Below the pieces are notes generated by a model. That model had not been told where the DNA came from, did no database searches, and saw only the letters and a program-made list of their open reading frames with translations. DNA of 64,000 nt from contig NZ_JACGVC010000049.1 of NCBI RefSeq assembly GCF_014077005.1, positions 496,001 to 560,000 on the forward strand, in the 5' to 3' direction. The stretch comes from Colwellia sp. MB3u-45 (GTDB lineage Bacteria > Pseudomonadota > Gammaproteobacteria > Enterobacterales > Alteromonadaceae). The position numbers were made by a program, and so were the translations under genes. This document shows positions 42,833-57,005 of this stretch, piece after piece (the stretch's first letter is position 1; every line of letters starts with the position of its first letter).

Positions 42833-43585
42833 TTACCATTTAAAGACATTAAATATCTGCTGCCATTGTTCATCAAACTCAGCTTCAATTAACATTTCTA
42901 GCCCTGTTACGGGGTGAATAAACTCCACCTGTTTAGCCATTAACATTAAACGTTTAAAACCAAAGTGTTCACCAAAAAATGGATTTTGCTTATTGTCACC
43001 ATAATTTATATCACCAATGATAGGGTGGCGTAAGTGAGCAAGATGTCGACGAATTTGGTGACGGCGTCCCGTATGAGGTTGACATTTAATTAACGAATAT
43101 CGCACGCTTGTATAATTACCTAAGGGCACCGGCAATGACGCAATAGCGACTGACTTGTAAAATGTTTCTGCACTTTGCGCGTCTTTATCACGGCTAACAT
43201 TTTTATCTCCTAAATCATCAAGCTTTTCTTTTAATGGGTGATCAATAACCCCTTCATTTAGCAAATGTCCCCGCGTTAAGGCAAAATAAGTTTTTTTTAT
43301 CTTCCTCTCGCTAAACGCTTGCCCCATTAAGCGAGCTACATCCTGGGTTAAGGCAAATAACAACACACCTGATGTGGGTCTATCAAGCCGATGTAATGGG
43401 TAAACATATTGGCCAATTTGATCACGAATAAGTTGTAAAGCAAAGTAAATTTCATCTTTGTCCATAAAGCTTCGGTGGACAAAAAGCCCTGGGGGTTTAT
43501 CAACAGCCACAAGATATTCATCTTGATATAAAATTTTCAATAGTGGTTTTTCAACAATTACCGTACCCGCATTTTTAATTGTCAT
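42833..43585 (-). CDS. truC: tRNA pseudouridine(65) synthase TruC
   Basis: This 250-residue RluA-family enzyme closely follows E. coli TruC: ILYQDEYLVAVDKPPGLFVH, the catalytic loop HRLDRPTSGVLLFAL with its Asp, HTGRRHQIRRHLAHLRHPII, and FGFKRLMLMAKQ. It isomerises U65 in some tRNAs. It is divergent from the DUF3549-DUF3301 pair, the arrangement seen in other marine gammaproteobacteria. Confidence 0.93.
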   Translation of the reverse strand: MTIKNAGTVIVEKPLLKILYQDEYLVAVDKPPGLFVHRSFMDKDEIYFALQLIRDQIGQYVYPLHRLDRPTSGVLLFALTQDVARLMGQAFSERKIKKTYFALTRGHLLNEGVIDHPLKEKLDDLGDKNVSRDKDAQSAETFYKSVAIASLPVPLGNYTSVRYSLIKCQPHTGRRHQIRRHLAHLRHPIIGDINYGDNKQNPFFGEHFGFKRLMLMAKQVEFIHPVTGLEMLIEAEFDEQWQQIFNVFKW

Positions 43586-45041: not shown

Positions 45042-45344
45042 ATGGAAAATATTTACTATCTACTTTTTATCGGCTTACTCTTTTGGTATTTTGTATATTT
45101 ACGAAAAGTATCTGAGTATGCTCGCTCCCATGTTGATAAATATTGTAAAGATGAAAATTTGCAATTTATAGCGATAGCGCGTTTATCGAGTCGATTTAGG
45201 TTCTCTAAACGCTTAGGACCACATTGGTTAAGTCATTTTGATTTTGAATTTAGTGGTGATGGTGAATCTACATACCATGGCACAATGATATTACGCGGTT
45301 ACAAACTTGACAATATCGACACGCCCCCTTACCGAGTTAACTAA
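45042..45344 (+). CDS. DUF3301 family small membrane protein
   Basis: This 100-residue protein has one N-terminal membrane helix (YYLLFIGLLFWYFVYLRKV) and a short cytoplasmic domain with LQFIAIARLSSRFRFSKRLG and FEFSGDGESTYHGTMILRG, the DUF3301 pattern. It starts 8 bp after the DUF3549 gene and ends just before a strong terminator, so the two form a bicistron. The function is unknown. Confidence 0.82.
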   Translation: MENIYYLLFIGLLFWYFVYLRKVSEYARSHVDKYCKDENLQFIAIARLSSRFRFSKRLGPHWLSHFDFEFSGDGESTYHGTMILRGYKLDNIDTPPYRVN

Positions 45345-45374
45345 CACAACGCTGAATAAATAAGCAGGTAAAGG

Positions 45375-45401
45375 AAAAGCGACCTTAAGTCGCTTTTTTT
45401 T
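45375..45401 (+). terminator. Terminator of the DUF3549-DUF3301 operon
   Basis: AAAAGCGAC (45375-45383) pairs with GTCGCTTTT (45389-45397), loop of 5, followed by a run of T. Confidence 0.88.
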
Positions 45402-45818
45402 GATTTCGCTAATTATGCCCTTAACATATCGTTCCAAAAGGGTCTGTTCACTCCATGAATAACCTAAACGTCCTGCAAAGTATCCATATTAACCTAAATA
45501 TATAACCTAATACTCTCTGAGCAATAAATTGATTAACGCTATAAATACAACGCTATTTTTTCTCTGTACTTAATCGTCTCCCTAGCTCTGTGCCTACTTA
45601 ACAGTATGGAGTCTACTTTAATTGATGTGCTAAAATAGCTAGATAAACTTTTATTTTTATTAGTTTGATAAATGCCTATAAATGCACAAACAAATATCTC
45701 AGATAAACTGACTTCGCAGGCTAAATTAGTTACCCTTGATAACTCTCATTGAGTTTTATTTTAGTAATTTTCAAGTTAGCGTATACCGCCATATAGCTAA
45801 CTTATTTTTGGAGGTCTT
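45402..45818. other. Intergenic region before the DUF805 gene
   Basis: About 415 bp with no gene I can support. A small hairpin (AACTC-TCATT-GAGTT then TTATTTT, about 45740-45762) could act as a weak terminator or attenuator. A perfect GGAGG at 45810-45814 sets the start of the next gene. Confidence 0.4.
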
Positions 45819-46937
45819 TTGCAACTTATTAAGTCGCTATTTTGCTGGCACGGTTTTGATAACCGACAACGTTTTATCTTTATTAGTCTTACATGTTTTC
45901 TTGCTTTTATCATACTAAATGAAAGCTTGAGTGATCATAAATTCAGCGCCATTTTTATACTGTTATTATGTTCATCAACATACTTAGCGGCTACTCGGCG
46001 CCGACTCAATGATGCGCACCTACATAACACTTGGATTCTAGCGCCTGCGGGCAGTTTTTTGGTAACAGGTTTTTTCATTGTTTTTACTGGCTACAACAGC
46101 AGCTATTGGTTGCTATTAATACCTTTACTTATGATGGTAGTACTTTTAACTTACCCAAGTAAAAGTCAAAAGCGCTATATACTTGGTTATAATGGTCCAG
46201 TTAATTTATCTGATTTTCAACAACTAAAAAAAACTAACTCTCGTAACAGCCAACGTATTGAACCTACTATGAATAGTGTCAATATCAGTCAATCTTCAAT
46301 TAATAAAAATGATTATTCGCCACTTGCAGATAACAATCAAAATACCTCTTCAACCACCCATGCCAATCACTTCAGTGATAGTTCGCAAGATAAAGTCGAA
46401 CTTGCTGAGTCAATTCGCTTAGCGCTTTTTAGCAAAAAAAATAGCCAACTCACTATAGCCTTGATTAGCTTTTTATTAGTAATAGCATTCATTATATCAA
46501 TGCTATTTGCTAAACCAACACCGGCTGATAATCCTGTGGAACACACAAGTGAAATTCAAAAAACAGCAAAAGAATTTCAACATCAAATAACATTACCAGA
46601 CAACTTCTCTATCATGATCGCTGCTGATAACGCTATTGTCATCCAGTGGCAAGCTAGTGTTAAAGATAACCTTAACGTTTGGTCCCTAGGCACTGCTGCA
46701 GGTGATAAAAGTTGTAAAAGCATCGAGTTTACGAAAGAAGAAGTGATCAGAACCTATAGTGTCAGCACAATAGATAACAAGTATTATGCCTATTTTTCGC
46801 CATTAGACACCAAAGCGTTAATTAAAAATATCGCTTTTAAAAACAAATTTTTACTCTGCGGTTACAGTTTCTCATTAAAAGGTAGTCAAGCTAGGTTAGG
46901 GAAATCGCCTTTTTATGCCAATTTAATTGAATATTAA
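45819..46937 (+). CDS. DUF805-type membrane protein with a C-terminal globular domain
   Basis: The start is a TTG placed four bases after a perfect GGAGG, which is decisive because no ATG lies near. The first 115 residues are a DUF805-like membrane domain: FDNRQRFIFISLTCF and the typical RRRLNDAHLHNTW, then three more helices. A polar, Ser/Asn-rich linker follows (about 130-205), then another helix (LTIALISFLLVIAFIISMLFA, about 213-233). The C-terminal domain of about 130 residues has no family I recognise and two cysteines (KSCKS, FLLCGYS) that may pair. The gene is monocistronic. Confidence 0.6.
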   Translation: MQLIKSLFCWHGFDNRQRFIFISLTCFLAFIILNESLSDHKFSAIFILLLCSSTYLAATRRRLNDAHLHNTWILAPAGSFLVTGFFIVFTGYNSSYWLLLIPLLMMVVLLTYPSKSQKRYILGYNGPVNLSDFQQLKKTNSRNSQRIEPTMNSVNISQSSINKNDYSPLADNNQNTSSTTHANHFSDSSQDKVELAESIRLALFSKKNSQLTIALISFLLVIAFIISMLFAKPTPADNPVEHTSEIQKTAKEFQHQITLPDNFSIMIAADNAIVIQWQASVKDNLNVWSLGTAAGDKSCKSIEFTKEEVIRTYSVSTIDNKYYAYFSPLDTKALIKNIAFKNKFLLCGYSFSLKGSQARLGKSPFYANLIEY

Positions 46938-47091
46938 TTTGACCTAAAAATAAAAAAACCAGCATTGAATTAATTGATGATTGGATTTAAAGAGGGGTTA
47001 ATGGCCTTGTTTAAAATAAGCTTTAACAAAATTTCTTGTTAGATTGGCTTAAAATTAGACTGGCATTAGTACGTTGAGTGAATTTTAGACG
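46938..47091. other. Intergenic stretch between the DUF805 gene and the CsrB-like RNA
   Basis: Plain AT-rich sequence. It separates the convergent DUF805 gene from the 3' end of the CsrB-like RNA. Confidence 0.4.
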
Positions 47092-47116
47092 AAAAAAAAG
47101 CGGTTCAATGAACCGC
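47092..47116 (-). terminator. Terminator of the CsrB-like RNA
   Basis: On the minus strand GCGGTTC and GAACCGC (47110-47116 and 47100-47106) form a 7-bp stem with a 3-base loop, followed by eight T. Confidence 0.9.
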
Positions 47117-47220
47117 ATTTCTATAACTAGCTTATATGCATCCTGCATAAATATATAATGTTCCCTCTTCATCCATAAAGAGCTATCCCTAGCCTTTCCT
47201 AGCAAACCTTTTGCTGTCCA

Positions 47221-47325
47221 TATTGTCCTTAATAATAACTATCCTAGTTACATCATATTGTCCTTAATAGTAACTATCCTAGTTACATCCTATTATCCTT
47301 AATAATAACTATCCTAGTTACATCA
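47221..47325 (-). repeat. Three 35-bp tandem repeats inside the CsrB-like RNA
   Basis: Units at 47221-47255, 47256-47290 and 47291-47325 are nearly identical, with one to three differences. On the minus strand each unit supplies an AACTA-GGA-TAGTT hairpin and an AAGGA element, that is, two potential CsrA sites. Confidence 0.93.
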
Positions 47326-47469
47326 ATTGTCTATATTCATCTTCCTGATGATTATTCCGTGACAACTATTCAATCTATCCTTGTGAGACATCCTATCTCT
47401 TTGCTAATCTAAGCATCCTAGTGGTAAACCATTACCGTTATTCGTAATCCCTTTGTCTTCCTGACAGGT

Positions 47470-47499
47470 ATAATAGTAGACTAAATGCTAGCTTTTCAA
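47470..47499 (-). promoter_or_regulatory. Sigma70-type promoter of the CsrB-like RNA
   Basis: On the minus strand TTGAAA (47499-47494) and TATTAT (47475-47470) are separated by 18 bp. They place the start of transcription near 47465-47462, just at the 5' GTCAGGAAGAC hairpin. Confidence 0.7.
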
Positions 47500-47632
47500 A
47501 GTAGGTGATTTAAAAAAAACATCAAAAAATCAATCGCAGCATTGAAAAATAAAAAATAAACCTATAAAAACAACAGCTTAAAATAAATAAAAATATGTAC
47601 ATGCCTATCAAAAGTATTATATCTTACAGTAA

Positions 47633-47650
47633 TGTGAGACATGTCTTACA
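47633..47650. promoter_or_regulatory. GacA/UvrY-type upstream activating palindrome
   Basis: TGTGAG-ACATGT-CTTACA is one base from the consensus TGTAAG-N6-CTTACA bound by GacA/UvrY/VarA response regulators. Its centre lies about 177 bp upstream of the predicted RNA start, close to the distance known for csrB in E. coli and rsmZ-type genes in Pseudomonas. Confidence 0.75.
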
Positions 47651-47862
47651 TTGAGTTAGCGCATTCAGGTGTACGAAAAACAAACTACTAGTATTGTGCC
47701 CCTTGCATTTTAAGATGCAGACTTGTGCAAGCTGAGAAAGGGTTCGCTACCAGACATAATTTAAGGCAGCACAATATAGGGTGAAAGTAACAGAAAGTTG
47801 GTTACCAGAGCCAAAAGCGTTTATTCTCGGCAACTGCGTGTGTGTCACCTTAGTAACTCAGA

Positions 47863-47944
47863 TTTAGGTGGGAGCGTCTATATTGGAGTCTCTATGTGGG
47901 AGCGTTTATATAAAAGCCTTTAGGTAAGAGTCTCTATATAAAAG
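47863..47944. repeat. Imperfect direct repeats
   Basis: Degenerate copies of a motif close to TTTAGGTGGGAG-TCTCTATATAAAAG follow one another (units from about 47863, 47886, 47897 and 47919). They lie in the otherwise featureless 47651-48242 region between the GacA-type box and the GNAT gene. No function can be assigned. Confidence 0.5.
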
Positions 47945-48242
47945 TATTGCCAAAATCGATAACACCAAAGGTGACGCTTTCTTGGCTTGCTCGTTGGGAG
48001 TTAAGTTAGAAATGATAAGGGTCTATAACAAAAAGCCTACTAGAAATGTTATGAGAAAATCTTTTAGTTAGTTAAGTGCTAATGTCGCTATAACATCACA
48101 GCCAATAACTAAATGCCAGTCGCCCATAATCAATGAAAACCATAACCCTAGTGACGAGTTGATGATTTAGCTAGCGAGCTAAAGTAAAGCTTTTGGTTGT
48201 ATCACTTTACTTATATAAAATTGACAGCTAAATGCTTAAGAA

Positions 48243-48893
48243 TTAACTTTCCGCTGCTTCTCGATAATAAACCATCAAAGAACCAGAGACATTACCAACA
48301 GCAACTTCTTTAATGAACTGATAGTTTACGTCTTTAAAAAATGCTTTATATTTTTTACTGGTAGCGTAAACAGCAACGCCTTCACTGTCTTTGTGCTCTG
48401 CTAAAATGGTATTTACCGCTGCCATTAAATAATGACCAAAGCCATGGTGTTGATGTAATGGATGTATAGCAATAAAAGACAACATGTGAAATTTTTTCAA
48501 CGGAACTGTCGCTAAAACAATATTTTCTTTTTCAATCATTTGTTTGGTACTAAAATAACCGGCACCCAGCATCATTTTCAAGCGCCAATGCCAAAATCGC
48601 TCAGATGACACACCTTCTTCAGGGTTATTTAAGCAGGCAACACCCACCATGGTTTCACCTAAATACAAACCGATCATTGGCTGCTTTGCTTGCCAAAAAA
48701 CATTCAGTTCTTCGCGTATCGCTGCCCGTAAGCGTTGTTCATAATCGCTTTTATCCGCAGAGAATATTTCAAGAAACACCGGGTCATCATGATACGCTTG
48801 GTATAATAATGATGCGGCTAATTTTAAATCTTCAGCCGAAAGGTATGCAGCTTTTATATCGACATTGGTTTTTTCAATGACTTCTGGTGACAT
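48243..48893 (-). CDS. GNAT family N-acetyltransferase
   Basis: This 216-residue protein has the GNAT acetyl-CoA loop as FIAIHPLHQHHGFGHYLMAAV, with H-H-G-F-G as a variant of the Q/R-x-x-G-x-G/A motif. The N-terminal DLKLAASLLYQAYHDDPVFLEIF and the PMIGLYLGETMVGVACL strand pair are also typical. The C-terminal GVAVYATSKKYKAFFKDVNYQFI is the usual closing strand. The substrate is unknown. It has no operon partner. Confidence 0.8.
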   Translation of the reverse strand: MSPEVIEKTNVDIKAAYLSAEDLKLAASLLYQAYHDDPVFLEIFSADKSDYEQRLRAAIREELNVFWQAKQPMIGLYLGETMVGVACLNNPEEGVSSERFWHWRLKMMLGAGYFSTKQMIEKENIVLATVPLKKFHMLSFIAIHPLHQHHGFGHYLMAAVNTILAEHKDSEGVAVYATSKKYKAFFKDVNYQFIKEVAVGNVSGSLMVYYREAAES

Positions 48894-55497: not shown

Positions 55498-56082
55498 TTA
55501 CTGGGCATTTTCAATACTGGTTGGCGGTATCCGTGGCGTAAGTTGCGACATAAATTCAGCCAGTGTCTCTGCTATTTTTTTATGTGGCTCTCGGCCCACT
55601 TTTTCCACCCACACTGAGCCTGTGTCATTGTCTAATGAAATAATATGGTCGTCATCATCAGTCAGCGCAAAAAATATCGTTAGCTTTTGTTTTAATTTTG
55701 TTTTCATTAAAATATGGCCAATAATATTTTCTTGTAGACGCGCAAAGTCTTTTTCGCTCCATACAAATAACAATGACAAGTCTCCTTCTATGCAACTGGC
55801 ATCTAAGCTGTCACTATAAATAGTGGTAAAATAGTCTTTAATGTCAGCATGAAGTTTGACTTCCAAGGCCGCTTCAACATTATCAAACGTTAACACTTGG
55901 GCCATTTTTATTGGCTGCCATAAAGAAAAATCTTCTTCATGCACACCCTGCTCACAAGGCGATGACCAGTCTTCATCTTTTTGGGTAATAGGTAAATGTT
56001 GAAACCTATCTTGGTATGCTTGTAAGTAATCTTGAGAAAATTGCCATACGAGTTCATTAAGAGAGTGATTTGATATTTTCAT
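55498..56082 (-). CDS. syd: SecY-interacting protein Syd
   Basis: This 194-residue protein matches Syd in length and sequence: LNELVWQFSQDYLQAYQDRFQHLP, DEDWSSPCEQG, FSLWQPIKM, and the C-terminal ISLDNDTGSVWVEKVGREP. Syd binds the cytoplasmic loops of SecY and can proofread the SecYEG complex. It is divergent from queF, as in E. coli. Confidence 0.93.
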   Translation of the reverse strand: MKISNHSLNELVWQFSQDYLQAYQDRFQHLPITQKDEDWSSPCEQGVHEEDFSLWQPIKMAQVLTFDNVEAALEVKLHADIKDYFTTIYSDSLDASCIEGDLSLLFVWSEKDFARLQENIIGHILMKTKLKQKLTIFFALTDDDDHIISLDNDTGSVWVEKVGREPHKKIAETLAEFMSQLTPRIPPTSIENAQ

Positions 56083-56153: not shown

Positions 56154-57005
56154 ATGAGCACTTATACAAACGCAAAAGCGTTAAGCAAGTTAACGCTTGG
56201 AAAAGTAACAAGCTATTGCAGCCAATATACCCCAGAATTACTACAAGCGGTACCTAGGAGCTTAAATAGAGACAGTTTAGGTTTAACAACAAACAAGCTG
56301 CCGTTTAAAGGTGAAGATGTTTGGTATGGCTATGAGCTGTCATGGCTAAATGACAAGGGTAAGCCCGTTGTTGCGGTGGCTGAATTTAGTTTTCCATGTA
56401 CCAGCCCAAACATTGTAGAGTCAAAGTCTTTTAAGCTGTATTTAAACAGTTTTAATCAGACTAGATTCTCCTCGTGGCAAAGTGTAGAGTCTGCATTAAT
56501 AAAAGACTTATCCGCTACCGCTGGCGCCAGTGCAGAAGTAAAACTTTTTCCTGTCAATAACTGCCCTGCACTCGCTATAGCCCTTGATAACGCATTATGT
56601 ATAGATGAGTTAGACATTGAAGTGAGTCATTACCAACTTGCTCCACAAATACTAAAAAGTATCAACCATGACCAAGCAGATGTTGTGACTGAATATTTAG
56701 TTTGCCATTTATTAAAGTCAAATTGCTTAATCACTAATCAACCTGACTGGGCGAGTGTTTATATTGAATATAGCGGTCAACAAATTTGTCATGAAACCCT
56801 ATTGAAATATTTAATTTCGTTTCGCCAACATAATGAATTTCATGAGCAATGTGTTGAGCGAATTTTTTGTGATCTCAAGCGTTTTTGTCAGATTGAACAC
56901 CTAACAGTTTTTGCTCGATATACCCGCAGAGGCGGCTTAGACATTAATCCATTTCGCTCAACAAGCAAAACAAAAGCGCCTAAATTAAGAACACTACGAC
57001 AATAA
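56154..57005 (+). CDS. queF: NADPH-dependent 7-cyano-7-deazaguanine reductase
   Basis: This 283-residue enzyme is the long, duplicated (type II, E. coli-like) QueF. It reduces preQ0 to preQ1 in queuosine synthesis. Motifs are AEFSFPCTSPNIVESKSFKL with the QueF signature ESKSFKLYLNS, the active-site Cys and Asp in LLKSNCLITNQPDWAS, and FARYTRRGGLDINPFRS at the end. Length equals that of E. coli QueF (282). Confidence 0.96.
   Translation: MSTYTNAKALSKLTLGKVTSYCSQYTPELLQAVPRSLNRDSLGLTTNKLPFKGEDVWYGYELSWLNDKGKPVVAVAEFSFPCTSPNIVESKSFKLYLNSFNQTRFSSWQSVESALIKDLSATAGASAEVKLFPVNNCPALAIALDNALCIDELDIEVSHYQLAPQILKSINHDQADVVTEYLVCHLLKSNCLITNQPDWASVYIEYSGQQICHETLLKYLISFRQHNEFHEQCVERIFCDLKRFCQIEHLTVFARYTRRGGLDINPFRSTSKTKAPKLRTLRQ

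Follow-up and report, generated by a model that had tools for sequence, protein, structure and literature searches.

Anatomy of a GGA-rich RNA locus

Gene content, RNA anatomy, conservation, covariation, gene order and the presence of CsrA, UvrY and BarA were determined computationally for the window, i.e. the whole 64-kb stretch of DNA analysed, and for related genomes. Between positions 46938 and 48242 the ORF list of the window holds no frame of 80 aa or more, in line with the original prediction of a region without protein genes. The longest frame in this interval is 60 aa; it begins within the RNA termed csrB1 here and reads across its terminator. The region lies among the following genes and features:

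42833..43585, minus strand: orthologue of truC, which codes for a tRNA pseudouridine synthase (match at 43543-42836 with 52% identity to the E. coli protein, the best in the genome)
45373..45640, minus strand: probable csrB2 relic (approximately 5 GGA, terminator stem kept at 45401-45373, box segment missing)
45819..46937, plus strand: DUF805-like gene that separates csrB1 from the probable relic (PF05656, below the Pfam cut-off)
47092..47466, minus strand: csrB1, predicted CsrB-type CsrA-sponge RNA of approximately 375 nt with 20 GGA (GGA density, Rfam CsrB match, genus alignment, covariation)
48243..48893, minus strand: GNAT-like acetyltransferase gene upstream of csrB1 (FR47-like PF08445, below the Pfam cut-off)
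55534..56040, minus strand: syd orthologue (32% identity to E. coli, E 1e-26)
56154..56807, plus strand: queF orthologue (52% identity to E. coli, E 8e-69), transcribed divergently from syd, the E. coli arrangement

The minus strand of 47092-47465 contains 20 GGA in 374 nt, 14 of which are AGGA. This confirmed the count originally given and makes csrB1 the densest place of the window, as the next-densest separate 374-nt stretch on either strand holds 7. Dinucleotide shuffles of the csrB1 stretch (n=2000), in which GG and GA content is kept, gave 11.3 +/- 2.1 GGA and never more than 19. When the RNA is folded at minimum energy, 9 of the 20 GGA are entirely inside hairpin loops, where at least eight had been proposed to be displayed. 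Placement of the 5' end relied on the promoter and on the conserved start sequence TGTCAGGAAGACA. Elements of the RNA and of the DNA upstream of it are:

47633..47650, minus strand: GacA/UvrY-type upstream activating box TGTAAG-N6-CTCACA
47470..47499, minus strand: sigma-70-like promoter TTGAAA-18-TATTAT (sequence scan; largely conserved across the 16 aligned genomes)
47454..47466, minus strand: conserved 5' element TGTC-AGGAA-GACA, a weak hairpin (genus alignment)
47385..47399, minus strand: GGA hairpin GAGATA-GGA-TGTCTC (covariation helix 3)
47337..47351, minus strand: GGA hairpin TCATC-AGGAA-GATGA (helix 5, double changes at two pairs)
47182..47193, minus strand: GGA hairpin GCTA-GGGA-TAGC (covariation helix 8)
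47135..47149, minus strand: GGA hairpin TATGCA-GGA-TGCATA (covariation helix 10)
47092..47116, minus strand: intrinsic terminator GCGGTTC-ATT-GAACCGC-T8 (covariation helix 11)

Judged by its sequence, csrB1 has its own promoter and intrinsic terminator within an intergenic region. The sigma70-like promoter with 18-bp spacing that had been proposed is present and is the top promoter match in 45300-48300, agreeing at 10 of 12 positions, but the scan of this interval as a whole returned 8 sites compared to 12.4 in shuffles, i.e. no excess. The promoter call is accordingly based on position and conservation. At the 3' end the proposed GC-rich stem with eight U was recovered as a 7-bp stem at 47116-47100, of which five pairs are G-C, followed by eight T.

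The activating box has one mismatch to TGTAAG-N6-CTTACA, which we take to be the GacA/UvrY box consensus. Genome-wide, four sites come within one mismatch of this consensus, the csrB1 box included. A box with at most two mismatches was found in all 16 aligned genus genomes (own included), 189-192 nt ahead of the first counted GGA, where a GGA was counted only if more than 150 nt after the box. This distance is 189 nt in csrB1 itself, and one of the 16 genomes (L048) has an additional GGA nearer the box. Family-wide, 89 sponge RNAs carry a box within 115-235 nt, and in 75 of them the distance was 188-205 nt. Among the 16 aligned genomes the RNA is conserved, whereas the interval from box to promoter drifts.

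Two other elements were observed upstream of the RNA. A partly conserved TTTAAG...TTGTTTT block, at 47560-47590 on the minus strand and at the equivalent position in the other 15 genomes of the alignment, lies between box and promoter and is perhaps, as a guess only, a candidate IHF site. Five imperfect 28-nt copies with 14-nt spacing occur at 47865-47948, between the GNAT gene and the activating box of csrB1.

Conservation, the CsrB model and the chromosomal slot

Among named organisms, those closest to the window are species of Colwellia and Cognaticolwellia. DNA matching csrB1 was found in 17 of 17 genus genomes, own included, although in one of them (G204, 66% complete) over 40 nt only; the alignment comprises the other 16. 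The structure examined has 11 helices with 58 pairs, and 98.1% of its pair cells form in these genomes, a percentage that leans towards the structure because the structure was derived from the same alignment, with long-range pairs and weak terminator-flanking pairs omitted. Double changes are stronger evidence than the percentage paired. Changes on both sides were observed at 10 of the 58 pairs, in 20 cells, and 0 of 500 shuffles attained these numbers or the percentage paired. Sliding the structures by 1 to 3 columns left 0 to 4 double-change pairs as opposed to 10 in the true register. The number of further pair types, one of five covariation measures, showed no excess over shuffles (455 of 500 reach its value). 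Conservation of the GGA hairpins in relatives had been named as a check on the original prediction, and the hairpins are kept with compensatory changes across the 16 aligned genomes.

Rfam at the gathering threshold returned nothing in the window. With the threshold lifted, positions 1-356 of the CsrB model RF00018 aligned to csrB1 at 25.3 bits (E 5.7e-5), and this was the sole match of the model at E <= 0.001 in the 4.17-Mb genome. The Rfam CsrB model, proposed as a check, thus has a match that is unique in the genome at this E value and whose score is about one third of the curated cut-off of 71 bits. A search at the cut-off would have seemed to speak against the CsrB claim, because the score is far below 71 bits. 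Only the best of overlapping matches per clan was kept in the Rfam search, and a weaker Rsm match would be masked.

The same model was applied to the family, where E <= 0.001 was reached in at least 54 of 196 genomes, a lower bound given that the stricter filters of the family run missed the window's own genome. The curated cut-off was reached in 0 of 196. Among 14 control genomes RF00018 matched E. coli alone, above the cut-off. As no genome of the family reaches the cut-off while E. coli passes, the cut-off probably reflects the training set of the model. A second model, R1, consisting of the 3' 128 positions, was built from the 16 aligned genus genomes and gave E <= 0.001 in 53 of 196 family genomes, 8 of which are genus genomes that built R1; its matches were taken without one-by-one inspection and some are weak, with E near 1e-3. 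RF00018 or R1 matched in 93 of the 196 genomes when the two lists were compared by hand. Two further R1 matches in the own genome were at chance level (E 0.1 and above), and the RF00018 and R1 searches found no second csrB elsewhere in it.

Membership of csrB1 in the CsrB/RsmB family is claimed by descent, i.e. by synteny and structure, and not by the Rfam cut-off. Gene order in E. coli K-12 is queF(+), syd(-), csrB(-), yqcC(-), truC(-). The window has queF, syd, csrB and truC in this order and orientation; yqcC, which lies between csrB and truC in E. coli, was not found in the window. The complete series queF, syd, GGA cluster, yqcC, truC was observed at one locus each of Shewanella (L123), Paraferrimonas (L126) and Alteromonas (L121). 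The shared order of queF, syd, csrB and truC makes csrB1 the positional orthologue of E. coli csrB. Other genes came in between syd and csrB1, with approximately 6.6 kb of them separating syd from the GNAT gene, and also between csrB1 and truC. Sequence similarity thus fades at the csrB1 locus and the slot persists. In many relatives a GGA-dense cluster with a box is found downstream of the GNAT gene.

The circuit in which CsrB acts in E. coli was looked for in the genome. A single CsrA was found (91.4 bits against a cut-off of 27), which settled in the affirmative whether a csrA gene exists in this organism, along with UvrY at 68% identity to E. coli UvrY and BarA at 42% identity over nearly the full length. 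The parts of the circuit are therefore present.

Tandem copying of a 35-nt unit and probable decay of a second copy

Two features of the locus are new beyond the original prediction, a 35-nt repeat within csrB1 and the probable relic of a second copy. The repeat comprises:

47219..47331, minus strand: tandem array of 3.3 copies of a 35-nt unit (TRF, 91% matches; genus alignment)
47306..47320, minus strand: repeat hairpin copy 1, TAACT-AGGAT-AGTTA (helix 6, double changes at three pairs)
47271..47285, minus strand: repeat hairpin copy 2
47236..47250, minus strand: repeat hairpin copy 3

Each unit holds two GGA sites, one displayed in the loop of a hairpin and the other lacking a stable hairpin of its own. 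By alignment boundaries the RNA is 373 nt long in the window versus 303 nt in each of the two nearest relatives, and this gap of 70 nt is exactly two extra 35-nt units. The extra units add five GGA, giving 20 in csrB1 versus 15 in the two nearest relatives. They are absent from all 15 other aligned genus genomes and constitute a tandem duplication that, within the alignment, is confined to this genome. The extra units would be expected to raise the capacity of the RNA for CsrA.

At uniform settings, 9 of the 89 sponge RNAs of the family that are supported by a box contain an array of 23-51-nt units holding 4 or more GGA. With these settings no such array was reported in 445 control stretches of equal length taken from the same loci, none in 445 shuffles and none in E. 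coli csrB. The 89 RNAs are those of 106 GGA clusters that have at least 12 GGA and a box with at most three mismatches 115-235 nt upstream, a box that we estimate to be expected by chance in roughly one of ten clusters. They were drawn non-randomly, from RF00018 matches and GNAT-gene neighbourhoods, with some genera represented more than once. Their GGA content ranges from 12, the filter floor, to 47 per RNA. As the nine arrays comprise eight distinct units in six genera, module copying recurred. One array is weak (L138, 1.9 copies), and that of L157 was left out of the nine for want of a box.

Some GGA clusters of the family stood out individually. L157 (G139) has a 56-nt tandem array and 11 GGA in a cluster with no recognisable activating box and may not be a sponge RNA. 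L011, L013 and L019, all of genus g45, are clusters of 526-664 nt with 33-39 GGA that consist largely of 50-51-nt units in 3.8 to 6 copies. The richest cluster seen was L008 (G043), with 47 GGA in 560 nt.

The second copy was sought in the slot which in the genus lies between the DUF805-like and DUF3301 genes. GGA were counted over all DNA between these two genes in 13 genus genomes, own included, with G198, G199 and G200 (DUF3301 not matched in the sequence retrieved around the locus) and the 66% complete G204 left out. The slot held 10-16 GGA in 6 of the 13 genomes and 0-6 in the other 7, among them the window with 5. The window slot is 68% identical to that of G202 over 326 nt (E 7.5e-29, 11 slots compared). 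From its sequence, 45373-45640 on the minus strand is a probable relic of a second csrB that has lost its box and retained its terminator. In the six genomes with a GGA-rich slot the box is imperfect in its right half, and csrB2 may for this reason be weak there too. A further GGA cluster, starting 0.5 to 2.2 kb downstream of the start of the first, was also observed at L061, L062, L064, L069, L074, L075, L076, L078, L082, L087, L093, L100 and L123.

We considered whether module gain in csrB1 offsets loss of csrB2. Where the csrB2 slot has 0-6 GGA, csrB1 has 20 (own), 15 (G201), 17 (G163), 17 (G196), 15 (G007), 17 (G091) and 19 (G197); where the slot has 10-16, it has 15 (G203), 16 (G056), 15 (G119), 15 (G182), 17 (G143) and 17 (G202). 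The difference is small, and these counts do not support the proposal.

Interpretation and relation to known Csr RNAs

Taken at face value, a purine-rich and repeat-rich stretch of non-coding DNA could have no function, or the locus could be a small coding gene. The internal tandem repeat, the overlapping 60-aa frame and a GGA count barely above the shuffle maximum of 19 are in keeping with this, which we nevertheless regard as exceedingly improbable, since the frame runs over the terminator, and 15 other genomes conserve the RNA, in its form without the extra units, and show compensatory changes in it, whereas the interval between box and promoter drifts. It is also very unlikely that the RNA is real and its extra units are an artefact of assembly. 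They do occur in only this genome among the 16 aligned, but assembler duplication is made unlikely by the differences between the copies (91% matches in TRF), unlike copies made by an assembler, and comparable arrays are present in other genera.

An independent origin was also weighed, in which csrB1 would be a working CsrA sponge that shares only the GGA style with E. coli CsrB. The primary sequences are barely alike and, as described above, the Rfam cut-off is reached nowhere in the family; furthermore, emergence de novo has been proposed for Pf1 and Pf2 of Pseudoalteromonas, for which the published account reports no relatives outside the genus (PMC11882849). Such an origin is already weakened by synteny, as the syd-truC slot is common to E. 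coli and to the Shewanella, Paraferrimonas and Alteromonas loci, and csrB1 aligns to the whole RF00018 model. We consider it very improbable. The stretch 47092-47466 is almost certainly the csrB of a Colwellia/Cognaticolwellia species, an RNA that would be switched by BarA/UvrY and sequester CsrA. The RF00018 match, the single csrA, the covarying GGA hairpins, the box at fixed distance and the E. coli gene order all support the CsrB-type sponge originally predicted.

Transcription of csrB1, its control by UvrY, CsrA binding and downstream effects are inferred from what is known of E. coli CsrB and from the published descriptions of the relatives Aln1a-c (PMC5864184) and Pf1-3 (PMC9927453, PMC11882849). 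BarA would drive phosphorylation of UvrY, and phosphorylated UvrY would presumably act at the predicted box at 47633-47650. Transcription would then start at approximately 47466 and end at the terminator at 47092. The resulting RNA of approximately 375 nt would present up to 20 GGA, many of them in hairpin loops, and could hold several CsrA dimers, whereby CsrA would leave its target mRNAs. That these targets include motility, biofilm and carbon flow in this organism, as originally suggested, is a guess.

In size and GGA content csrB1 resembles CsrB of E. coli K-12 (RF00018), with approximately 375 versus 369 nt and 20 versus 22 GGA, and both are flanked by syd and truC, end in an intrinsic terminator and occur with CsrA, UvrY and BarA in the genome. 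Unlike E. coli CsrB, csrB1 scores far below the Rfam cut-off, contains the 35-nt array, and is separated from truC by the DUF805-like gene, the relic second copy and two further genes. RsmY and RsmZ of Pseudomonas are likewise CsrA/RsmA sponges under a GacA box, but are shorter and have fewer GGA than csrB1.

No report of CsrB in Colwellia was found in the open-licence literature. A 2006 paper reportedly predicted Csr RNAs in gamma-proteobacteria and may list Colwellia. Among the sources found, Colwellia psychrerythraea 34H served as comparison genome for Shewanella sRNAs in an article whose two mentions of CsrB are general (PMC5471319), and CsrB/RsmB reads, mostly Vibrio-like, were assigned in a marine metatranscriptome by BLASTN against Rfam (PMC3840354). 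Closer likenesses come from related marine hosts, as judged by published description. Aln1a-c of Alteromonas macleodii Te101 resemble csrB1 in their many A(N)GGA motifs and a genomic CsrA, and differ in being three RNAs, from one 404-nt intergenic region, compared to one here; their expression was reported by differential RNA-seq (PMC5864184). Pf1, Pf2 and Pf3 of Pseudoalteromonas fuliginea, described with 25, 21 and 9 GGA, are GGA-rich like csrB1, and Pf1 shares a GacA-type box in the form of a putative GacA-binding sequence. Regulation of glycogen synthesis by Pf1 has been reported in E. coli, and in the same host Pf2 and Pf3 are described as paralleling CsrB. Relatives by sequence were described for Pf1 and Pf2 from Pseudoalteromonas only, and partial matches to Pf3 from outside it, one in a Thalassotalea (PMC9927453, PMC11882849).

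Whole-gene duplication and loss of csrB copies is described for csrB1-4 of Vibrio tasmaniensis (PMC6262261). This gain and loss of whole copies is comparable to the situation in Colwellia, where, however, a single gene also changes internally as a hairpin unit is copied in tandem; the main text of that article contains neither the word "tandem" nor "GGA". No report of module amplification or repeat expansion in Csr RNAs was found in the open-licence literature. The window shows both types of change, in that two 35-nt modules were added to csrB1 and the second sponge next to it has decayed to a probable relic. Tentatively, CsrA-sponge RNAs may alter their capacity as repeat proteins do, through tandem multiplication of individual CsrA-binding hairpins within the gene, in addition to gain and loss of whole copies.

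The synteny of csrB1 is a caution against taking missing BLAST matches as evidence for de novo birth of Csr RNAs. Furthermore, a search with RF00018 at the cut-off misses a probable global regulator across this family, which constitutes a gap in annotation. The repeat units provide a natural series of sponges with differing module numbers in close relatives, and the effect of valency on CsrA control is therefore directly testable.
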